Source: Strigops habroptila | Taxonomy: Eukaryota; Chordata; Aves; Psittaciformes; Psittacidae | Assembly: GCF_004027225.2 (NCBI RefSeq) | Contig: NC_044301.2 | Location: 25,484,210-25,548,209, forward strand | Direction of reading: 5' to 3' | DNA length: 64,000 nt | In this document: in pieces, positions 1-50,154 of the stretch | Position numbering within the stretch: position 1 is the first letter of the stretch | Layout of the letters: the number at the start of each line of letters is the position of its first letter | Made by a program: the position numbers and the translations under genes | The notes under the pieces: model-generated | The model's input: only the letters and a program-made list of their open reading frames with translations | Database searches by the model: none | Told to the model about the DNA's origin: nothing

Positions 1-2
1 TG

Positions 3-1101
3 CAGCAATGGAAGCAGAGCAACTGGCAACGCAGAAGTAAACCCATCTGGGCTGCTGCATTGTGGCAAGATATCGCTGCTCGGGTGCAGAACCTGGTGGT
101 GAAGGTACGCCACGTAGATGCTCATGTACCCAAGAGTCGGGCCACTGAGGAACACCAGAATAACCAGCAAGTGGATAAAGCTGCTAAGATTGAAGTGGCT
201 CAGATGGACTTGGATTGGCAACATAAGGGTGAATTATTTTTAGCCTGGTGGGCCCATGACACCTCAGGCCATCAAGGCAGAGATGCAACATATAGATGGT
301 CTTATGATCGAGGGGTGGACTTAATGATGGACACTATTGCCCAGGTTATTCACGAATGTGAAACATGTGCTGCACTTAAGCAAGCCAAGCGGTTAAAGCG
401 TCTGGTATGGAGGACGATGGCTGAAGTACAAGTATGGGGAGGCCTGGCAGACTGATTATATCACACTCCCACTGACCCGCCAAGGCAAGCGCTATGTGCT
501 TACCATGGTGGAAGCAACCACCACATGGCTGGAAACATATGCTGTGTCCCACGCCACTGCCCGGAACACTATCCTGGGCCTTGAGAAACAAGTCTTGTGG
601 CGACATGGCACCCCAGAGAGAATTGAGTCAGACAATGGGACTCATTTCCGGAACAACCTCATAGACACTTGGGCCAAAGAGCATGGCATTGAGTGGGTAT
701 ATCACATCCCCTACCATGCACCAGCCTCTGGGAAAATCAAACGGTACAATGGGCTGTTAAAAACTACACTGAGAGCAATGGGTGGTGGGACTTTCAAACA
801 CTGGGATACACATTTACCAAAAGCCACCTGGTTGGTCAACAGTAGGGGATCTGCCAACAGGGCTGGCCCAGCCCAATCAGAACTTTTATGTACTGTAGAG
901 GGGGATAAAGTTCCTGTGGTGCACATAAAGAATTTGTTGGGGAAGACAGTCTGGGTTATTCCTGCTTCAGGTAAAGGCAAACCCACTCGTGGGGTTGCTT
1001 TTGCTCAGGGACCTGGATATACTTGGTGGGTAATGCGGGAAGATGGGGAAGTCCGATGTGTACCTCAAGGGGATTTGATTTTGGGGGAAAACAGCCAATG
1101 A
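3..1101 (+). pseudogene. ERVL-like pol 3' part: RNase H end and integrase (copy A, broken)
   Basis: Retroviral pol entering from the left edge. One open frame (3-455) holds the C-terminal end of RNase H (HVDAHVPKSRATEEHQ, then the NQQVDKAAK aspartate) and the integrase zinc-binding module (HDTSGHQ...HECETC). A frameshift near 415-440 moves the reading to a second frame that ends at 1101 and holds the integrase core (ESDNGTHF carries the second catalytic Asp) and C-terminal domain. The third catalytic residue, Glu in the usual GKxER motif, reads Lys (GKIKRYNG). Known role of the family: RNA removal and insertion of viral DNA. Inference: inactive fossil. No env follows. Confidence 0.9.
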
Positions 1102-1529
1102 ACTCAATTGTACGCTGTTGCCTGCTCTATAACACTTTTATAGCCCACCAGCTAGATATCTTCAGGTCGCCAGCAATTGACCCTGACTTCCCTCCGATCA
1201 TCACCTCAACAAAGAATGAATTTTGAGAAAACCAGACAAGCTCAGCAGTGACCAGACGAGTTTGGCGGTATCATCAGCAGGCAGCAACCCAACACTACAC
1301 ACCGTCCCTCCTGCCCTGAAAGACTATTACAAGAGATGGAGCCTGACATCATGGACTGGATGAGTTCAGCAATTTTACAGGGATTGGTCCATGGACTAGG
1401 GAATAATATCTTTCTCTGTGTGTGGGTGTGGTTGTATATATATGTGTATATATGGGACAGGGGTGATGGTGTGCTGAGAGATGTGGGATCTGAGCATGAC
1501 GTGAATGGTATGGAATAAGGGGTGGATAC
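1102..1529 (+). repeat. ERVL-like 3' internal region to polypurine tract (copy A)
   Basis: Noncoding tail between the integrase stop and the 3' LTR. It contains a short inverted repeat (TGCCTGCT at about 1118-1126 and AGCAGGCA at about 1277-1284) and a TA/TG-rich patch near 1434-1452. It ends in a purine-rich tract (AATAAGGGGTGGATAC) directly before the LTR, the position of the plus-strand primer. The same tail is seen in reverse at 11317-11564 and 61475-61725. Confidence 0.75.
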
Positions 1530-2098
1530 TGTCCTGGGTTCAGCTATAGCAGTCATTTTTCTCCTTCTTAGTAGCTGGTGCAGTGCTGTGTTTTTTAACT
1601 TTCAGCCTGGGAACAACGCTGATAACACTGATGTTTTTAGTTGTTGCTAAGTAATGTTTACTCTGACCAAGGACTTTCTCAGTCTCATGCTTTGCCAGGG
1701 AGGAGGGGAAGCCGGGAGGAAGCAGAGACAGGACACCTGACCCAAACTAGCCAAAGGGGTATTCCATACCACAGCACGTCATGCCCAGTATATAAACTGG
1801 GGGGAGTTACCCGGAAGGCCCAGATCGCTGCTCAGGTTGGGCTGGGTATCGGTCAGCAGGTGATGAGCAATTGTATTCTCTCCCCTTGTTATTTCCCTTA
1901 TCATTATTATTATTGGGGGTAGCAGTAGTAGTTTTGTATTATACCTTAGTTACTGTAGTGTTCTTATCTCAACCCATGGGATTTACATTCTTTTGATTCT
2001 CCTCCCCATACCTCCAGGAGCAGGGGGGGAAGAAGGGAGGGAGGGAGTGAGCAGATAGATACATGGTTCTGAGTTACTGGCTAGCTTAAAAAATGACA
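1530..2098 (+). repeat. ERVL-like LTR, full length, shared by two tandem copies
   Basis: 569 bp, starts TGTCCTGGGTTCAG and ends TGACA, so it has the TG...CA ends of an LTR. TATA-like TATATAAA lies at 1789-1796. It is preceded by the pol and polypurine tail of copy A and followed after 8 bases by a primer-binding site, so it serves as 3' LTR of the left copy and 5' LTR of the right copy. The same sequence recurs at 9999, 10750 (-), 22593 (-), 42980 (-), 60504 and 60916 (-). Confidence 0.92.
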
Positions 2099-2106
2099 GT
2101 TCTTAT

Positions 2107-2124
2107 TGGTGCCCAACTTGGGGC
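2107..2124 (+). promoter_or_regulatory. Primer-binding site, tRNA-Lys(1,2) type
   Basis: TGGTGCCCAACTTGGGGC lies 8 bases after the LTR. It matches the known tRNA-Lys(1,2) primer site with two differences. The copy at 42954-42971 (-) reads TGGCCCCCAACGTGGGGC, also close to that consensus, so the family used tRNA-Lys. Confidence 0.85.
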
Positions 2125-2219
2125 TCAAAGGGCTGAGATAACGACAGATCTGACCAGAGTGTGTCTAATTGTATTTGTGATAAGCATTCACTGTTTTGGA
2201 TTAATAGTCACTCATCACA

Positions 2220-3596
2220 ATGTTTATTTATTTGCTCTCAGAGTCGTTGCATTTGGTCTTGGAGTTTCTGCACATCATACCTTACTTACAGCCAGTATTT
2301 GCTTTTTTAGTATTTATCAGCTGGGGGGGCCTGGGCTAAGGTCATTGTTTCACTGTACTTCATGGTACTGACTGGTAATACAACAGAATCATTGATCATG
2401 AAACTGGTCTGGCATGCATTCTCAGCATGGTCATCACCTCCATACTTTGGGAGGCATATAATGGAATTTTTTAGCAATTACACATCTTTTTTTTCCTCCT
2501 CGGTGCGTCAACCTATGAAGGAGACATTCCCTCATACCCCCCGCTCCCCCACAAGGCTATTTACAGCAGCATTTGAGAATTCTAAAGGTTTTGGATGGCC
2601 TTTGGATACCCTTGGAACCTGTCTGCTGCTTTTGCTGGGGATCAGCATGTTGCCACACACACAGCGTGTGTTTTACCCATGGCCATCCCACCCTGAGAAC
2701 ACCCTATTTCATCTGATCTTGAAAGTTAAGCAGGGTCGGTCTTGGGTCTTGTCTAGGGTTAGACAACGATATAGGAGGACCACCAAGAGATTTTCCCCGA
2801 TGCTGGACAGTCATGAGTGGCAGGGGGCGTGGGATAGTATGGGCAAGTATCTAGGCCAGTGGGCCCATCCAGTGCTTTGGAACTTCACCCCCGAACAAGT
2901 GCGAAATCTGGAAGAACTAATAAAGCACTTAAATGAGGTGTGCTATCGTTCTGGCAATACCGAAGAGAGAAATGAGCCCTCAGCCTTTGGAGGCGGCTCC
3001 TGGCAGCTGTGAAGGAAAGGTTTCCTTACAAGGATGATGTTATGTGTCACTCAGCCAAGTGGACCGCAATACAGAGAGGCATGCAGTCCCTGAGGGAATC
3101 AGCCATTCTAGAGATGATCTATCGTAGGACGGATGTCGGGAATGCACCCCTAGATCCAGATGAACTCAAATGTACACAACCCATGTGGCAGAAACTTACA
3201 CGGAGTGCACCATCATCATATGCCCACTCATTGGCATCAATGACCTGGAGTGAGGCAGCACCACCAACAGTGGATGAAGTAAGTCATCAACTCCAAGAGT
3301 TCAAAGACAATCTCACCCCTTCCATCATTTCAGCTGTGGAAAAACTCCTGTCCCAAGAGTTCAAACAATTGAGAGATGATGTATCCAATCTATCCAGCTC
3401 CCCAAGTGTACCAACCTGCATCTCAACTATTAACAGAAGGCGCCCTACTGCTTGAGAGAGAAGATATAGGAGGTACACACTATGGGCCACCCTATGGTTT
3501 TCCTTGCGGGATCACGGAGAAGACATGAGAAAGTGGGATGGAAAACCTACCCCAGTTCTGGAGGAACGGGTATGTGAATTGGAGAACAATGGTCAA
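2220..3596 (+). pseudogene. ERVL-like gag with hydrophobic N-terminus (copy B, broken)
   Basis: ATG at 2220 is 95 bases after the primer site, the same spacing as in the copy at 42858 (-). The N-terminus (MFIYLLSES, then a strongly hydrophobic stretch) is cut by one extra G in the G-run at about 2322-2328. The frame resumes at 2362 and runs to 3012, with a second hydrophobic stretch (CLLLLLGISML) and a basic segment RRTTKRF. Another frame, 3009-3455, ends at a TGA where the 40.9-kb copy has CGA; it contains the coiled-coil-like part (EFKDNL, SAVEKL) and STINRRRPTA. The end (MRKWDGKPTPVLEERV) reads up to 3595. No Cys-His box was seen. Role inferred from position between primer site and protease. 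Confidence 0.72.
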
Positions 3597-3886
3597 GGAG
3601 TTACCCGGAAGGCCCAGATCGCTGCTTGGGTCGGGCTGGGTATTGGTCGGCGGCTCGTGAGCAATTGCATTCTCTCCCCTTGTTATTTCCCTTATCATTA
3701 TCATTACTGGTGGTAGCAGTAGTAGTTTTGTATTATACCTTATTTACTGGACTCTTATCTTACCTGGTGGGATTTACATTCTTTCGAATCTCCTCCCCAT
3801 CCCTCCAGGAGCAGGGGGGGAAGAAGAAGGGGAGTGAGCGAGTGGCTGCGTGGTTCTGAGTTACCAGCTGGGCTTAAACCACGACA
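3597..3886 (+). repeat. ERVL-like LTR fragment (3' half)
   Basis: From GGAGTTACCCGGAAGG to ACGACA, this matches the last half of the LTR at 1530-2098. It is joined directly to gag at 3596, so protease, pol, the 3' tail and the LTR 5' half are missing. The junction lies on a few shared bases (GGAG), suggesting a deletion through microhomology. Confidence 0.85.
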
Positions 3887-9993: not shown

Positions 9994-10556
9994 AGTTAGG
10001 TCCTGGGTTCAGCAGTAGCAGTCATTTTTCTCCTCCTTAATAGCTGGTGAAAAGCTGTGTTTTTTGACTTTAGCCTGAGAACAGTGCTGATAACACACCG
10101 ATGTTTTTAGTTGTTGCTAAGTAATGCTTACACTGATCAAGGACTTCTTCAGTCTCATGCTCTGCCAGGGAGGAGGAGAAGCCGGAAGGAAGCAGAGACA
10201 GGACACCTGACCCAAACTAGCCAAAGGGGTATTCCACACCATGGCACGTCATGCCCAGGATATAAACTGGGGGCAGTTACCCAGAAGGCCCAGATTGCTG
10301 CTCGGGTTGGGCTGGGTATCGGTCAGCAGGTGGTGAGCAATTATATTCTCTCCTCTTGTTATTTCCCTTATCATTATTATTATTGGTGGTAGCAGTAGTA
10401 GTTTTGTATTATACCTTAGTAACTGGACTGTTCTTATCTCAACCCCTGGGATTTACCTTCTTTTGATTCTCCCCCCCATCCTTCCGGGAGCGGGGGAAGT
10501 GAGCAAGCGGCTGCATGGTTATGAGTTACCGGCTGGGCTTAAACCACGACAAGTTA
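9994..10556 (+). repeat. Solo ERVL-like LTR with 5-bp target duplication
   Basis: LTR 9999-10551 (553 bp), close to the LTR at 1530-2098; the first base has changed (GGTCCTGGG for TGTCCTGGG) and it ends ACGACA. The flanks carry the direct repeat AGTTA at 9994-9998 and 10552-10556. Five-base duplications are usual for ERVL-type integrases. No internal sequence remains, as expected after recombination between the two LTRs of a provirus. Confidence 0.93.
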
Positions 10557-10749: not shown

Positions 10750-11316
10750 TGTCGTGGTTTAAGCCCAGCCAGTAACTCAGAACCACGCAGCCGCTCGCTC
10801 ACTCCCCGCCTTCTTCCTCCCCCTGCTCCCAGAGGGATGGGGAGGAGAATCAAAGGAATGTAAATCCCACAGGTTGAGATAAGAACCCTCCAGTAACTAA
10901 GGTATAATACAAAACTACTACTGCTACCATTAATAATGATAATGATAAGGCAAATAACAAGGGGAGAGAATACAATTGCTCACCACCTGCCGACTGATAC
11001 CCAGCCTGACGTAAGCAGTGATCTCGGCCTTCTGGGTAACTCCCCTCAGTTTACATACTGGGCATGATGTGCTGTGGTATGGAATACCCCTTTGGCTAGT
11101 TTGGGTCAGGTGTCCTGTCTCTGCTTCCTCACAGCTTCCCCTCCTCCCTGGCAGAGCATGAGACTGAGAAAGTCCTTGATTGGAGTAAACATTACTTAGC
11201 AACAACTAAAAACATCGGTGTTATCAGCATGGTTCCCAGGCTTAAAGTCAAAAACACAGCACTGCACCAGCTACTAAGAAGGAGAAAAAATTACTGCTGT
11301 AGCTGAACCCAGGACT
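10750..11316 (-). repeat. ERVL-like LTR (3' LTR of copy C)
   Basis: 567 bp, reverse complement of the LTR family. The left end TGTCGTGGTTTAAGCC is the outer 3' end; the inner end reads CCAGGACT, with one changed base. The internal tail follows directly. Confidence 0.92.
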
Positions 11317-18962: not shown

Positions 18963-19306
18963 TGTCCTGGGTTCAGCTATATCAGTTATTTTTCTCCTTC
19001 CTAGCAGCTGGTGCAGTGCTGTGTTTTCGACTTTAGTCTGAGAACAGTGCTGATAACACACCAATGTTTTAGTTGTTGCTAAGTAATGCTTACTCCGATC
19101 AAGGACTTCTTCAGTCTCATGCTCTGCCAGTGAGGAGGGGCACAGGAAGCTGGAAAGAAGCAGAGACAGGACACCTGACCCAAACTAGCCAAATGGGTAT
19201 TCCATACCACAGCACGTCATGCCCAGTATAAAAACTGACGGGAGTTACCTGGAAGGGCCAGATCGCTCCTCAGGTCAGGCTGGGTATCGGTCAGCAAGTG
19301 GTGATC
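18963..19306 (+). repeat. ERVL-like LTR fragment in opposite orientation to its neighbour
   Basis: First about 344 bp of the LTR (TGTCCTGGG onward), cut near GTCAGCAAGTGGTGA and joined to RNase H sequence of a minus-strand copy. A normal provirus would have a minus-strand 3' LTR here. No direct repeat pairs its left flank (TTCAAAC) with the right flank after 23159 (GCTGCAT). Confidence 0.88.
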
Positions 19307-19308
19307 AA

Positions 19309-21445
19309 CAGGTGGTGCCACAATGCAGGAGCCCAGATGGGTTTACCCCTGCGTTGCCAGTTGCTCTGCTTCCATTGGTACAACCACCCCCACAGGGCAT
19401 TAGCCACCATCCATGAGTCAGTATAGAGATCAAGTACTGGCCATTTTTCTCGTTCAGCAATGACCCAGGCCGGCTGGATGGCTTTCACCTCTGCAAAGTG
19501 ACTCAATTCACCCTCTCCTTCAGCAGTTTCTGCACCTTGTCCCAGGAGACTCCACACAGCTGCCTTCCATCTCCAATGCTTTCCCACAATATGGCAGGAC
19601 CCATCAGTAAACAAGGCATATTCCTTTTCACTTTCTGACAGTGCACTATATGGTGGGGCCTCTTCAGCATGCATCACCTCCTCTTCTGGTGACATTCCAA
19701 AATCTTTGCCCTCTGTCCAGTCCATGATGACTTCTAGAATTCCTGGATGACTGGGACTTCCTATTCGAGATTACTGTGTAATTAGTGCAGCCCACTTACT
19801 CCATGTAGCATCGGTCACATGATGTATAGAGGAGACCCTGCCTTTGAACATTCAGTCCAGCACGGGCAATTGGGGTGCCAGGAGAAGCTGTGCTTCAGTT
19901 CCAATCTCTTCTGAAGCAGCTCGAACCCCTTCATAGGCTGCCAGTATCTCTTTTTCAGTGGGAGTATAGCTGGCCTTGGATCCTCTGTAATCCCGACTCC
20001 AAAAGTCTCCCCTGGAGCTTTCTGCCAGAGGCTCCAGGTAGGACCATTCTCCCCAGCTGCGGTGTAAAGCACATTTTTCACATCTGGCCTGGTCTGGACT
20101 GGTCCAAGGGCTACTGCATGAACTATCTCTCATTTAATTTGTTCAAAGGCTTGTTGTTGCTTAGGGCCCCATTTGAAATCATTCTTTTTCCGGGTCACGT
20201 GGTAGAGAGGGCTTACAATCAGACTGTAATTTGGGATGTGCATTCTCCAGAACCCCACAACACCTAAGAAAGCTTGTGTTTCTTTCTTGTTACTTGGTGG
20301 AGACATTGCTGTTATCTTGTTGATCACATCTATGGGGATCTGGCGACGTCCATCTTGCCATTTAATTCCCAAAAATCGAATCTCCTGTGCAGGTCCCTTG
20401 ACCTTACTCCGTTTTCTGGCAAAACCGGCCTTCAGCAGGATTTGGATTACTCTCCTCCCTTTCTCAAAAACTTCTTCCACTGTATCACCCCACACGATGA
20501 TGTCATCAATGTATTGCAGGTGTTCTGGAGCTTGCCCCTGTTCCAGTGCAGTCTGGATCAATCCATGGCAGATGGTAGGGCTGTGTTTCCACCCCTGGGG
20601 CAGTCGGTTCCAAGTGTACAGGATGCCCCTCCAGGTGAAAGCGAACCATGGCCTGCACTCTGCTGCCAAAGGGATTGAGAAAAATGCATTAGCAGTATCA
20701 CTTGTGGCATCCCACTTGGCTGCCTTTGACTCCAGTTCATATTGAAGTTCTAGCACGTCCGGTATGGCAGCACTCAATGGTGGTGTGACTTCATTCAGGC
20801 CATGATAGTCTACTGTTAGTCTCCTCTCTCCATTAGACATTTGCACTGGCCATATGGGGCTATTAAAGGGTGAGCGGGTCCTGCTGATCACTCCTTGGCT
20901 CTCCAGTCTACGGATCAGCTTATGGATGGGAATCAGGGAGTCTCGGTTGGTGCGATATTGCTGCCAGTGCACTGCTGCGGTTGCGATTGGCACTTGTTCT
21001 TCGATCCTCAGCAACCCCACAACAGAAGGATCCTCTGAGAGACCGGGCAAGCTGGACAGCTGCTTCATTTCCTCTTTCTCCAAGGCAGCGATACCAAAAG
21101 CCCATTGGTACCCTTTTGGGTCTTTCAAGTACCCTCTCATGAGACAGTCTACGCCAAGGATGCATGGAGCCCCTGGACCAGTCACAATGGGGTGCTTTTG
21201 CCACTTCCTCCCAGTCAGGCTGATTTCAGCCTCCAGTACAGTTAACTCTTGGGATCCTCCTGTCACTCCAGAAATATCAATGGGTTCCACCCATTGATAC
21301 TTCGTATGCATCAGGGTACTCTGTGCACTGATATCTACTAGAGCCTTATACTTCTGCGGGATTGATGTGCCAGGCCACCTGATCCACACAGTCCAGTAAA
21401 CCCGATTGTCCCCCTCTTCCACCTGGCTGGAGGTAGCGCCCCTCT
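19309..21445 (-). pseudogene. ERVL-like pro-pol: protease, RT, RNase H (copy D, broken)
   Basis: The frame 21422-20130 (430 codons) runs from the protease into RT. The protease triad that is normally DTG or DSG reads DIS (ALVDISAQSTLM). RT motifs: NSPIWPVQMSNGERRLTVDY, TANAFFSIPLA (first Asp), LPQGWKHSP and the intact catalytic YIDD. A frameshift at about 20130 leads to the RT connection region (TPTEKEILAAYEGVRAA), with a stop near 19855. RNase H follows at 19725-19309 (FTDGSCH, YTDSWMVANALWG). The integrase is absent; the sequence is cut at 19309 against an inverted LTR. Confidence 0.9.
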
Positions 21446-22508
21446 AATAGTGATCATAACATTCTCCATTTATGTCTTGTAGAAAGGGATTAGTATTCGT
21501 TATCAAAGGAAGTGGAGTAAAATCAGCTCTTCCACTCCATCTGGGAAACTGCTCACCAGAGACTGGAGCAACAACTTTCTTTAGGAGGATCATCCTTGAA
21601 CTTTATTTCCCTTTTCAATTCTTGCACCCATTTCTCCAGAACTGAGGCAGGTTTTCCATCCCACTTTCTCATGTCTTCTCCATGATCCGGCAGGTAAAAC
21701 CATAGGGTGGCCCGTGGCGTACACCTTCTATATCTTCTCTCTCAGGCAGTAGCATGCCTTCTATTAATAGTGGAGACATGGGTTGGTACATGTGGGGAGC
21801 AGGATAGATTAGATAGATCATCTTTCAATTCTTTGAACTCCTGGGACAGTTTTTCCACAGCTGAAATGATGGAAGGGGTGAGGTTGTCTTCAAACTCTTG
21901 GAGTTGATGACTTACTTCATCCACTGTTGGTGGTGCTGCCTCGCTCCAGGTCACTGATGGCAATGAGTGGGCCTATGATGATGGCGCACTCCGTTAAAGT
22001 TTCTGCCACATGGGTCATGTACGTTCGACTTCATCTGGATCTACAGGTCCATTCCCGACATCCAGCCTATGATAGATTATCTCTAGAATGGTTGATTCCC
22101 TCAGGGACTGGATGCCTCTCTATCGTGGTCCACTTGCCTGAGCAACACACAACATCATCCTTGTAGGGAAACCTTTCCTTCACAGCTGCCAAGAGCCGCC
22201 TCTAAAGGCTGAGGGCTCATTTCTATTTTACAATCGCTTTGTCAATTCCCCCTTCCCCAGCAAGTGATCCCAGCTGCTTGGCTTCCCTACCTTCTAGTTC
22301 CTGACCATCGGCCCCATTGTCCTAACATTAGAGCAACCAGGTGACGATGTGCTCCCCTGGAAGAGGGGTGAACTCTTTTTGCATATTCCGCAGCTCGGTC
22401 GAGGTCCAGGATCTAGAAGTTACCTCTTCCTCTCATTTCTGTAGTAACAATTCTCGTTCAGATGGTGTCCCCTCTAGTGCGCACACCGGGCCTTCCATTT
22501 TCTTCACT
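21446..22508 (-). pseudogene. ERVL-like gag C-terminal part (copy D, broken)
   Basis: Minus-strand homologue of 2950-3596. It includes the frame 21963-21742 (SAVEKLSQEFKELKDDLSN, STINRR) and, in another frame, the MRKWDGKP segment near 21650. The N-terminal half and the leader are missing: at 22508 gag is joined straight to the tRNA-Lys copy. Gag is inferred from position before the protease. No Cys-His box was seen. Confidence 0.7.
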
Positions 22509-22584
22509 TCCTGGCTAGCTCAGTCAGTAGAGCATGAGACTCTTAATCTTAGGGTCGTGGGTTCGTGCCCCATGTTGGGCACCA
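22509..22584 (+). tRNA. Retro-copied full-length tRNA-Lys(CUU) with CCA, contiguous with the retroviral primer site
   Basis: 76 bases that fold as a tRNA: acceptor 1-7/66-72 (1:72 mispaired), D stem GCTC/GAGC, anticodon stem TGAGA/TCTTA with loop CTCTTAA (anticodon CTT at 22542-22544), T stem GTGGG/CCCAT, discriminator A73 and CCA. Bird nuclear tRNA genes do not encode CCA, so this derives from a mature tRNA. The last 18 bases (22567-22584) are the primer-binding site of the minus-strand provirus, 8 bases from its 5' LTR. Against vertebrate tRNA-Lys(CUU) the changes are mostly C-to-T or G-to-A at former CpG sites, plus A58 to T in the T loop (22566). It is a reverse-transcription product, not a tRNA gene. 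Confidence 0.9.
22567..22584 (-). promoter_or_regulatory. Primer-binding site, tRNA-Lys(1,2) type (copy D)
   Basis: Minus-strand reading is TGGTGCCCAACATGGGGC, complementary to the 3' 18 bases of tRNA-Lys. The spacer to the LTR is 8 bases (GTTCTTTT), as in the other copies. Confidence 0.9.
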
Positions 22585-22592
22585 AAAAGAAC

Positions 22593-23159
22593 AGTGGTGG
22601 TTTAAGTCCAGCTAGCAACTCAGAACCACACAGTCGCTCACTCACTCCCCTTCTTCACCCCCCATTCCCAGAGGGATGGAGAGGAGAATCAAAAGAATGT
22701 AAATCCCATGGGTTGAGATAAGAACAGTCCAGTAACTAAGGTATATTACAAAACCACTACTACTACCACCAATATTAATAATGATAAGGGAAATAACAAG
22801 GGGAGAGAATACAATTGCTCACTACCTGCCGACTGATACCCAGCCTGACCCAAGCAGCGATCTGGCCCTTCCAGGTAACTCCCCCCAGTTTATATCCTGG
22901 GCATGATGTGCTGTGGTATGGAATACCCATTTGGCCGGTTTGGGTCAGGTGTCCTGTCTCTGCTTCCTCCCGGCTTATTGTGCCCCTCCTCCCTGGCAGA
23001 GCATGAGACTAAAAAAGTCCTTGGTCGGAGTAAACATTACTTAGCAATAACTAAAAACATTGGTGTGTTATCAGCGTTGTTCTCAGACTAAAGTTGAAAA
23101 CAGCTCTTCACCAGCTACTAAGAAGGAGAAAAATGACTGCTATAGCTGAACCCAGGGCA
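22593..23159 (-). repeat. ERVL-like LTR (5' LTR of copy D)
   Basis: 567 bp, minus orientation, inner end AGTGGTGGTTTAAG and outer end AACCCAGGGCA (family end CCCAGGACA with one change). It sits next to the primer site, so it is the 5' LTR. Confidence 0.92.
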
Positions 23160-40625: not shown

Positions 40626-42858
40626 CCTCTAATAGTGATCATAAGATTTTCCACTTATGTCTTGTAGAAAGGGATTAGTATTCCTTGTCACAGGAGCTGG
40701 AGTAAAATCAGCTCTTCCACTCCATCTGGGAAACAGCTCACCAGAGACTGGAGCAACAACTTTCTTGGGAGGATCATCCTTGGCAGTTGTTCTCCTCTTC
40801 ATACCCGTTCCTCCAAAACTGAGGTAGGTTTTCCATCCCACTTTCTCATGTCTTCTCCGTGATCCGGCAGGTAAAACCATAGGGTGGCCCGTGGCGTATA
40901 CCTTCTGTATGTTCTCGCTCGAGCAGTAGGGCGCCTTCTGTTAATAGTTGAGATGTGGGTCGGTACACGTGGGGAGCTGCATAGATCGAATAAATCGTCT
41001 CTTAATTGTTTGAACTCCTGGGACAGTTTTTCCACAGCTGAAATGATGGAAGGCGTGAGATTGTCTTTGACCTCTCGGAGTTGACGAGTTATGTCATCCA
41101 CTGTTGGTGGTGCTATGTCATTCTAGGTCATTGATGCCAATGAGTGGGCATATGATGATGGTGCACTCCGTGTAAGTTTCCACGACATGGGTCATGTACA
41201 TTCGACTTCATCTGGATCTAGGGGTGCATTCCCGACATCCGGCCTATGATAGGTTATCTCTAGAATGGCTGATTCCCTCAGGGACTGGATGCCTCTCTCT
41301 ATCGCGGTCCAGTTGGCTGAGCAACTCATAACATTGTCCTTGTAGGGAAACCTTTCCTTCACAGCTGCCAGGAGCCGCCTCCAAAGGCTGAGGGCTCATT
41401 TCTCTTCTGCAATCTCTTTGTCAATTCCTCCTTCCCTAGCAAGTGATCCCAGCTGATTGGCTTCCCTGCTTTCTAATTCATGACTGTCCGCCCCATTGTC
41501 CCAGCATCAGAGCAACCAGGTGACAATGTGCTCCCCTGGAAGACGGGTGAAATCTTTTCGCATATTCCGCAGCTCGGTCGAGGTCCGGGGTCAGGAAGTC
41601 ACCTCTTCTTCTTCCTCTTCCTCTGATTTATGAAGTATTAACTCTTGTTCAGATGCTTTCCCCTGTAGTAAGTGCATTGGGTCTTTACTGCACGGCTTGC
41701 TCTTTGTCCATCTCTTTTGTTTTTCCCCTTGCTTACAGGGGCACCCCATATTGGCACGAATTGGTCATTTGGTTTAGCTGCAGTGTATATCACTGTAGTT
41801 GGAGTGGCCTTAGTGTCTGCCACTAGGGTTGGAGTGGCTGCAGTGTTTATTGTCGGGGTTGGTGCAGCTCTTGTGCTTCTGGGTTGTGTAGCACCAACAC
41901 CTGTGTTGTCTATTGTTGTCAGGGTTTGAGCAGCTGCTGTGCTTTTTACTGGGGTTGGTGTAGCTACTGTGCTTGGAGTTGGAGTAGCTGCATTTTCTGT
42001 TGCTTTGCCATCAGATCTAGAGACATCTTTTTGTCTTTGAAGGTGCTGGATATTGTTGAGCAGGGCTCTGTAGGCCTAGGCCAAGCCCCAGCACGTTGCC
42101 ATGATTTGTCCCTCTCTGGTATAACCAGGATGACAGCACACCTCATTTAAGTGTTTTACTAGGTTTTTCTGGATTTTGCACTTGTTCAGGGGTGAAGTTC
42201 CAAAGCACTGGAGGGGCCCACTGTCCTAGATACTTGCCCATACTATCCCATACACCCTGCCACTCATGACTGTCCAGCCTTGGGAAAAATCTCTTGGTGG
42301 TCCTCCTATATCTTCGTTTAACCCTAGACCAGACTCGAACTCGACACTGCTTAACTTTCAAGATCAGATGAAATAGAGTGTTCCCAGGGTGGGATGGCCA
42401 TGGGTAAAACACACTCTGTATGTGTGACAACATGCTGATCCCCAGCACAATCAGCAGGCAGGTCTCAAGTGTATTCAAAGGCTATCCAAAACCTTTAGAA
42501 TTCTCAAATGCTGTTGTAAATAGCCTGGTGGGGGAGCGGGAGGTGTAAGGGAATGTCTCCTTCTAGGTTGACCCCCCCAAGCAGGAACAAAGGGTATGTA
42601 TTTGCTATAAAATTCCATTATATACCTCCCAAAGTATAGAGGTGATGACCAGGCTGGGACTGCAAGACAGACCAGTTTCATGACCAATGAGTCTATTGTA
42701 TTACAAGTCCTTACCATGAAGTACAGTGAAACAATAACCTTAGCCCAGGCCCCCCAGCTGATAAACACTAAAACAGCAAATAGTGGCTGTAAGTAAGGTA
42801 CAACATGCTGAAACTCTGAGACCAAGCGCAACAACTCTGAGAGCAGATATATCAACAT
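40626..42858 (-). pseudogene. ERVL-like gag with N-terminal membrane-like segment (copy E, broken)
   Basis: Starts at 42858, 95 bases from the primer site. The first frame (127 codons, to 42475) begins MLIYLLSELLRLV and has a long hydrophobic stretch at about residues 20-50 (PLFAVLVFISWGAWAKVIV). The next frame (42478-42143) continues with CLLIVLGISML and the basic RRYRRTTKRFF, HEWQGVWDSMGKYLGQW. A threonine/alanine/proline repeat zone follows at about 42000-41760, then SAVEKLSQEFKQL, STINRRRPTA and MRKWDGKP near 40850. Several frameshifts. Gag identity is inferred from position. Confidence 0.7.
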
Positions 42859-42953
42859 TGTGATGAGTGACTATTAATCTGAAACAATGAATGCTTATCA
42901 CAAGTACAGTTAGACACACTCTGATCAGATCTGTCCTTATCTCAACCTTTCAT

Positions 42954-42971
42954 GCCCCACGTTGGGGGCCA
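42954..42971 (-). promoter_or_regulatory. Primer-binding site, tRNA-Lys(1,2) type (copy E)
   Basis: TGGCCCCCAACGTGGGGC on the minus strand, one base from the tRNA-Lys(1,2) consensus, with an 8-base spacer to the LTR. Confidence 0.92.
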
Positions 42972-42979
42972 CAAAGAAC

Positions 42980-43545
42980 TGTTGTGGTTTGAGCCCAGCT
43001 GGTAACTCAGAACCATGCAGCTCCTCGCTCACTCCCCCCCTTCCTCCTCCCCTCGCTCCCGGAGGGATGGGGAGGAGAATCAAAAGAATTTAACTCCCAT
43101 GGGTTGAGATAAGAACAGTCCAGTAACTAAGGTATAATACAAATCCACTACTGCTTTCACCAATAACAATAATGATAAGGGAAATAACAAGGGGAGAGGA
43201 TGCAATTGCTCACCACCCGCTGACTGATACCCAGCCTGACCCATGTAGTGATCTGGGCCTTCCGGGTAACTCCCCCCAGTTTATATACTTGGCATGATGT
43301 GCTGTGGTATGGAATACCCCTTTGGCTAGTTTGGGTCAGGTGTCCTGCCTCTGCTTCCTCCCAGCTTCCCCTCCTCCCTGGCAGAGCATGAGACTGAGAA
43401 AGTCCTTGGTTGGAGTAAACATTACTTAGCAACAACCTAAAACATTGGTGTTATCAACGTTGTTCCCAGGCTGAAAGTCAAAAACACAGCACTGCACCAG
43501 CTATGAAGAAGGAGAAAAATTACTACTACAGCTCAACCCAGGACA
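42980..43545 (-). repeat. ERVL-like LTR (5' LTR of copy E)
   Basis: 566 bp, minus orientation, from TGTTGTGGTTTGAGCC to CAACCCAGGACA. TATA-like element TATATAAA on the minus strand near 43280-43287. Confidence 0.93.
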
Positions 43546-49840: not shown

Positions 49841-50154
49841 TGTCCTGGGATCAGCTGTAACAGTTATTTTTCTTCAATAGAAGTATTGATCATAAAACTG
49901 CTCTGGTATGCATTCTCAGCATTGCCATCACCTCTATGTTTGGGAGCCATGTAATGGGAGTTATTAATAATTATACCTCTTTTTTTTCCCCCCCTCAGAG
50001 GACCAACCTATGGAGGAGACATCCTCCCACACCTTCCGCTCCCCCACCAGGCTGTTTATGTGGAATTTGAGAATTTTAAAGATTTTGAATATCCTTTGAG
50101 TACCCTTGAAACCAACCTTGCTCCTTTTTCTGGAAACCAGCATGCTGCTGCATA
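49841..50154 (+). mobile_element. ERVL-like fragment: LTR start joined to gag (copy F, left part)
   Basis: Only the first about 35 bases of an LTR (TGTCCTGGGATCAGC) remain, joined near 49876 to gag sequence matching about 2385-2650 of copy B (ATTGATCATAAAACTG). The LTR remainder, primer site and gag start are deleted. It stops at a CR1, and gag of the same strand resumes at 59491, so copy F is split by the CR1 and ERVK block. Confidence 0.85.

Follow-up and report, generated by a model that had tools for sequence, protein, structure and literature searches.

Copies of primer tRNA-Lys(CUU) extending beyond position 58 and joined to diverse sequences in an endogenous retrovirus family of Strigops habroptila point to repeated read-through by reverse transcriptase

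Introduction

What becomes of a retroviral plus strand when reverse transcriptase (RT) fails to stop at 1-methyladenosine 58 (m1A58) of its primer tRNA? A stop at m1A58 is held to be necessary for a usable plus-strand end. The question is raised by a provirus of the Strigops habroptila genome, here called E, in which the primer binding site runs on into what appears to be an entire tRNA-Lys(CUU). E lies on the minus strand of the 64,000-nucleotide stretch of DNA that was analysed (the window; contig C25).

Experimental work on HIV-1 and related viruses provides the background. As described in a review (PMC13191261), RT in vitro can copy a tRNA that lacks modifications all the way to the 5' end, minor stops are known for HIV-1 at tRNA position 37, and a primer over-extension sequence is present in lentiviruses and spumaviruses. 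According to a second paper (PMC1785368), the HIV-1 provirus is completed less well when extra tRNA sequence has been copied. We examined the structure of E, its relatives throughout the genome and the sequences to which the tRNA copies are joined.

Results

A tRNA-Lys(CUU) copy continuous with a primer binding site

The features of E and of its two siblings with primer sites are listed in Table 1. An initial annotation of the window had described 76 bases of tRNA-Lys(CUU) continuous with the primer site and LTR of a minus-strand provirus, and this description was borne out. Both ARAGORN and Rfam accepted the stretch as a tRNA, and 69/76 bases were identical to vertebrate tRNA-Lys(CUU) with CCA added, the reference used here. 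The same 76-base comparison gave at best 35/76 elsewhere in the window and 34-37 across 20 shuffles. The primer site passes without a break into the tRNA copy on one side and is followed by the spacer and then the LTR on the other, and the window contains no N bases.

The copy differs from the reference at tRNA positions 1, 4, 18, 42, 58, 65 and 73, and the only transversions are at positions 58 and 1. The annotation had placed most of the differences other than that at position 58 at former CpG sites; positions 4, 18, 65 and 73 are CpG sites, position 42 is a non-CpG transition and position 1 is the join itself. T58 of E lies within the consensus of the pol III B box.

Table 1. Positions, strands and descriptions of features in the window.
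Feature	Position	Strand	Remarks
tRNA-Lys(CUU) copy, E	22509-22584	tRNA sense on +	ARAGORN call tRNA-Lys(ctt); Rfam tRNA 45.5 bits (gathering 29)
Copy of primer tRNA positions 58-1, E	22509..22566	- (tRNA sense on +)	base 22509 ambiguous at join
tRNA 5'-end copy, E	22509..22521	-	11/13 bases match in register viral sequence upstream of the gag-like join (sibling B 41690-41702)
Over-extension sequence CGAA, found in the ordinary viral leader as well as in the tRNA copy (positions 57-54)	22562..22565	-	
Base after primer site (tRNA position 58), E	22566	-	A on provirus strand (T when read as tRNA)
Primer binding site for tRNA-Lys(CUU), 18 bases, E	22567..22584	-	
Spacer between LTR and primer site, 9 bases, E	22585..22593	-	GTTCTTTT-like; siblings A and B have the same spacer
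5' LTR of E	22594..23159	-	alignment to LTR_B 1-565
gag-like remains, RT (Pfam RVT_1), RNase H (Pfam RNase_H), broken, E	19316..22508	-	
Inverted partial LTR (LTR positions 1-340), far end of E	18963..19308	+	
Sibling A, with LTR, ordinary leader and primer site (2107-2124)	1530..2969	+	base after primer site T
Sibling B, with LTR, ordinary leader (about 1.3 kb) and primer site (42954-42971)	41641..43545	-	base after primer site A

The RT and RNase H matches in E had Pfam values of 4.8e-19 and 2e-8, respectively; Pfam gave no gag match, and the gag-like label is based on position and resemblance. Sibling B retains approximately 1.3 kb between its primer site and the point where E resumes. This sequence is absent from E, which confirms the earlier claim that E had lost its leader. 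A leader-like stretch at 49875-50147 has no primer site and was excluded. Owing to the inverted partial LTR, E has U3 ends on both sides.

With an LTR, a primer binding site, RT and RNase H the family has the composition of an endogenous retrovirus. In the top 120 of 1144 related proteins, every entry assigned to an organism (all but three) came from a bird. A class III (ERVL-like) retrovirus would be expected to have an RT nearest to the spumavirus type; the best solved structures for the RT were Pr125Pol (6.5e-36), a foamy virus protein, and RT p80 (6.9e-36), with about equal values. Private non-CpG changes in E amounted to 18/399 sites in the LTR and 49/1307 in two pol pieces, and a hand count of the tRNA copy gave 2 changes in 63 non-CpG sites. 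The tRNA part and the remainder of E have thus accumulated changes about equally fast, which indicates that the tRNA part was present in the original provirus.

Other rearranged or composite family sequences were seen in the window. Two family LTRs lie tail to tail about 195 bases apart (10000-10553, plus strand, and 10750-11315, minus strand), and the second continues into internal sequence from the 3' end of a copy on the minus strand. At 1-3886 (plus strand) an internal 3' part, an LTR (1530-2098), a primer site, a leader, a gag-like piece and a partial LTR follow one another in series, an order as in a tandem of two proviruses with one common LTR. The leader of B contains a 5S rRNA-like segment (42320-42405, minus strand; 32.5 bits, below the gathering score of 38), which also occurs in ordinary copies elsewhere in the genome (L034, 1250-1368, 67 bits over positions 1-120; L031, 1260-1338, 38.5 bits) and is possibly an older host RNA capture that became fixed in the family. 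Part of the same leader (about 950-1155; window about 41800-42000) recurs as a variable tandem repeat, for example in L030, L036, L048 and L055.

Further copies in the genome

A single whole-genome search (1.149 Gb) gave 40 scored matches out of 1688 candidates, one of them E itself. Of the 39 others 38 were examined; the remaining one (C25:25479365, query 1-139) was left out and is ordinary as judged by its match. tRNA sequence continued past the primer site and the over-extension bases in 25 of the 38 copies, 12 had an ordinary leader and one (L042) was cut inside the primer site. The proportions among the 40 scored matches do not represent a frequency because the query included the tRNA; among the copies found independently of the query, one of the three within the window has the tRNA. 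Two more family leaders in neighbouring DNA (the inverted arm of L048 itself, and L060) were ordinary, and L054 and L059 are weaker primer-site-like matches that stand outside the count. Only L039 among the 39 other scored matches aligned beyond the join of E, by 7 bases, its downstream sequence being antisense 3' internal sequence. Contig C25 (37.4 Mb, about 3% of the genome) held 24 of the 40 scored matches; it is perhaps a retrovirus-rich sex chromosome.

The initial annotation had interpreted E as a product of primer read-through, an interpretation that other genomic copies with tRNA sequence beyond position 58 and different junctions would favour and that the same tRNA-gag junction in all members of a subfamily would contradict. 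The 25 further copies, with many different joins, correspond to the former, and the 26 tRNA-bearing copies including E contain 24 distinct joins.

Other sequence collections gave little. Exact-pattern scans of viral contigs returned a single match, in a GC-rich contig (L001), and blastn of this contig to the window returned none. As a relative, L001 was rejected, its one 17-residue tblastn match (E 0.003) being taken as chance. A protein scan of the viral contigs yielded no confirmed relative and a scan of a collection of genome contigs no match. In phages and plasmids all matches were short and confined to query part 36-107, their targets being tRNA-Lys or unannotated stretches.

End points and neighbours of the tRNA copies

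The tRNA copy reached nt 1 or 2 of the tRNA in 12 of the 26 copies (L035, L039 and L043 being counted here by gapped alignment), ended at nt 5-13 in 10 and stopped earlier in 4, one of which, L070, stops at nt 35, two bases past position 37. E extends to nt 2 or 1. The proposal that RT had copied the tRNA past position 58 and that the end was then joined to gag-like sequence is therefore supported by E and by the many copies that are built likewise with different joins.

The first identifiable neighbour in the 24 joins was viral sequence in the sense orientation in 10, viral sequence in the antisense orientation in 7 and 7SK or 7SL RNA in 2. In the remaining 5 (L016, L020, L024, L027 and L037) the neighbour had no match among the family pieces, the window, the other loci and Rfam. 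Between about 10 and 50 unmatched bases separate the tRNA copy from the first identified sequence in L013, L014, L017, L018, L028 and L043. In L022 a complete 7SK RNA (287 bits, positions 1-331) begins with its first base and abuts the tRNA copy without a gap. In L019 approximately 50 bases of 7SL, starting from nt 1, are followed by gag-like sequence; the match to the SRP model was 34.4 bits (E 1.7e-7), below the gathering score of 70. One join is common to L011, L012 and L023, which lie on three contigs, and this implies that one tRNA-bearing element has multiplied.

Where the tRNA copies were long enough to tell, two tRNA-Lys isodecoders could be distinguished. One comparison assigned L053, L055, L064 and L067 to the second isodecoder and the others to the first, and another assigned L015, L017, L026 and L035 to the second. 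In L015, L017 and L026 both partners of a stem pair agree with the second isodecoder, which is also the best fit for L035, there over fewer bases. L060 matches tRNA-Lys(CUU) in 70/70 bases, with A58.

L065 (C25:5518600-5524900) has a polypurine-tract-like sequence, then an LTR with a tRNA copy and then non-family DNA, which lacks a polypurine-like tract before the next LTR. This is possibly a linear end whose primer tRNA had been copied and joined to host DNA.

Short homologies at the joins

The copy of the tRNA 5' end terminates in GCTAGCCGGGC. The overlap between tRNA copy and acceptor was computed for 10 joins, and at least 5 bases were common to both in two of them (L015, CCGGGC, 6 bases; L026, GACTG, 5 bases), compared to an expected share of 0.5% of random joins. 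The computed overlaps of L036 and L039 were out of register and were left out; read by eye, L039 has CCGGGC in both the tRNA copy and the acceptor. Separately from this run, the tRNA copy of L019 was found to overlap 7SL from its nt 1 by 7 bases (GCCGGGC). Overlaps were low in L010 (3), L011 (2), E (2, strictly counted), L040 (1), L022 (0-1), L021 (0) and L025 (0). The in-register resemblance between the last 13 tRNA bases of E and the acceptor region of sibling B (Table 1) was reached in 0/400,000 random draws, whereas 11/13 was reached anywhere in 17/2000 shuffles of the whole B leader, and sibling C matched the tRNA end at only 6/13 positions by eye.

Target site duplications and forms with inverted LTRs

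Fourteen elements were tested for a 5-bp target duplication, a class III or ERVL-like trait. An exact duplication was found at the expected place in four (L053, L061, L064 and L070) and was absent in 10/14; three of these (L048, L056 and L066) had 4/5 matches by eye and seven, including E, had no duplication. L070 consists of an LTR, 42 bases of primer-tRNA copy (primer site included) and an inverted LTR, with U3 on each side. Given that U3 ends on both sides are flanked by an exact duplication, the rearranged DNA was made before integration, and most simply it arose during reverse transcription. Elements bounded by inverted LTRs with U3 on each side were L063, L056, L048, L070, L069 and E, L070 being the one with the exact duplication.

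The base at position 58

The base that follows the primer site was compared between ordinary and tRNA-bearing copies, leaving out L042, which is cut within the primer site. Read on the provirus strand, it was A in 12/14 ordinary copies (the 12 fetched ones together with A and B). In the tRNA-bearing copies it was T, the faithful copy of A58, in 17/26 (15/24 joins) and A in 9 (9/24 joins); C or G was found in none. The difference in A versus T between the two groups was significant by copies (Fisher's exact test, p = 0.003) and by joins (p = 0.006), kinship among the copies being ignored.

Ordinary leaders mainly continue with ACGAA after the primer site. CGAA, which equals the copy of tRNA positions 57-54, was exact in 10/14 and one base off in 4/14, so that a primer over-extension sequence, that is, viral bases complementary to the tRNA beyond position 59, is present, and it is mismatched at position 58 in 12/14. 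The base of E at this position (22566) is the same as in sibling B, which has no tRNA copy, and it equals the virus's own base, because A is found there in 12/14 ordinary copies.

The initial annotation had taken T58, in the tRNA sense, as m1A58 misread by RT. This cannot be maintained as a diagnosis: the ordinary copies carry the same base, 15/24 joins are faithful, and the diagnostic signature of m1A58 misincorporation, a base unlike both tRNA and virus, was found neither in E nor in the other A-type copies. Late mutation as the sole cause was rejected as a general account, since A recurs in 9/24 joins. A58 in L060 speaks against a T58 tRNA template as the rule.

Discussion

Origin of the tRNA-bearing copies

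We conclude that primer-tRNA read-through very probably occurred repeatedly in this family, followed by aberrant strand transfer, in some cases by microhomology, and by integration of the products. In such a sequence of events the plus-strand strong-stop DNA would pass tRNA position 58 and often run as far as nt 1 or 2; when a covalently attached primer is copied, the product is expected to run off at the mature 5' end and to be continuous with primer site and LTR. A 3' end carrying the tRNA 5'-end copy would misfit the ordinary acceptor and would consequently be extended on another strand. Transfer to shortened viral minus-strand DNA would give the sense joins, transfer to viral plus-strand DNA or genomic RNA the antisense joins, and transfer to strands that had copied 7SK or 7SL to the 5' end of these RNAs the corresponding host RNA joins. 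Short homology may have guided the transfer in some cases, and the product would then have been integrated. The structure of the copies leads us to infer in which order the strands were transferred and that 7SK and 7SL had been packaged.

Alternatively, a single ancestral provirus could have taken up the tRNA once, the present copies being its later deletions, inversions and recombinants, and the join of L011, L012 and L023 does demonstrate that a tRNA-bearing element multiplied. For these three copies a single inherited event holds, and some other tRNA copies could owe their tRNA to an older element that already had it and not to a new read-through. A single event was rejected as a general account and we regard it as improbable, given that the joins fall at many different tRNA and acceptor positions, that two isodecoders are present, that the joined 7SK and 7SL sequences begin with nt 1 and that target duplications flank forms with different joins. 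DNA-level recombination of proviral primer sites with genomic tRNA-Lys genes would have about 22 bases of homology available in the primer site plus CGAA. It was rejected as very improbable on the grounds that none of the tRNA copies examined runs beyond the mature 5' end and that the sequence which follows varies by copy, that duplications enclose rearranged DNA and that the 7SK and 7SL joins start at nt 1. An assembly artefact or a chance tRNA-like sequence deserves practically no weight in view of the 69/76 identity of E compared to at most 37/76 in the shuffles and of the 25 further tRNA-bearing copies on several contigs; an assembly join at 22508/22509, in particular, is unlikely because of these like copies elsewhere.

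Origin of the base at position 58

The A at position 58 of E could have been placed by RT opposite m1A58 or could come from the leader of the family, and the ACGAA leader in turn could be an accident of history or could have become adapted to a misread copy. Insertion of dA by RT during bypass of m1A58 is conceivable and somewhat short of probable. The recurrence of A in nine tRNA joins is in its favour, and with transversions at only 1.2% of sites (20/1706 private non-CpG sites of E) such a recurrence is unlikely to stem from later decay alone. Moreover, where m1A precedes G or A, mismatch profiles contain little C (PMC4787781), which in template terms would leave T and G, and hence dA or dC in the copy. 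Some C would then also be expected, and it was found in 0/24 joins, although the profiles in PMC4787781 were obtained with other enzymes. The faithful T in most joins also argues against this reading, and no misreading is needed where the virus's leader base is already A.

The virus's own leader base could have entered instead if RT paused at m1A58, copied ACGAA from the viral copy of the primer site and returned to the tRNA via CGAA, or if a heteroduplex was repaired. We consider this as likely as the insertion of dA. It is consistent with the match of ordinary ACGAA leaders to tRNA positions 57-54 and not to 58, and with the lack of a third letter at position 58 in the 26 tRNA copies. Against it, RT would have to change template twice in a stretch of five bases, and to do so in each of nine joins; in addition, the bases directly after CGAA in the A-type copies are tRNA-specific. 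A broader idea, rather unlikely in our judgement, is that dA opposite m1A58 is routine in the family, with the ACGAA leader matched to the misread copy, and that, where copying reaches the tRNA 5' end, the GCTAGCCGGGC tail acts as a roaming primer; truncated viral strands and packaged host RNAs would then repeatedly have been turned into new elements able to integrate and, in some cases, to multiply.

Implications and comparison with known systems

On the preferred reading of repeated primer read-through, the family would be a natural germ-line record of repeated failure of the m1A58 stop, in which the consequences, namely the end point, the accepting strand and the ability to integrate, can be read in the copies. 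Read-through would also be a possible source of tRNA-like sequences in bird repeats and a route for the entry of 7SK and 7SL into proviruses, and base 58 across many joins might serve as a gauge of block bypass with or without misreading. Among the titles and abstract openings listed in literature searches, largely of papers outside subscription journals, there was no earlier report of primer-tRNA read-through fixed in genomes.

The closest known counterpart is the full-length plus-strand strong-stop product P1 that HIV-1 makes on unmodified tRNA-Lys3, as described in PMC13191261. In both cases RT proceeds past position 58 to the 5' end and the tRNA copy is continuous with U5 and the primer site. 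The copies that end at nt 1 or 2 (12/26) fit such a product, which in DNA would read alike whether it came from an m1A58-free tRNA or from bypass. P1 is described there as an inactive template, whereas the ends seen here were joined to other acceptors and fixed in the genome in 24 distinct joins. The over-extension sequence of lentiviruses and spumaviruses, in the same account (PMC13191261), resembles the leader of the present family in that bases next to the primer site are complementary to the tRNA T-loop, here CGAA for positions 57-54; the difference is that the base facing m1A58 here is A, mismatched to A58, in 12/14 ordinary copies. Repeats with many tRNA sequences are known from some bird genomes and are similar in content, the highlight that describes them (PMC8044554) giving no primer read-through mechanism. 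Retroviruses are also on record as taking up packaged host RNAs through template switches and patch repair (PMC4997597). That process is alike in that 7SL is found in a recombinant and that microhomologies act as splints, and it differs in that here the donor end is the copied primer tRNA and 7SK is joined from nt 1.
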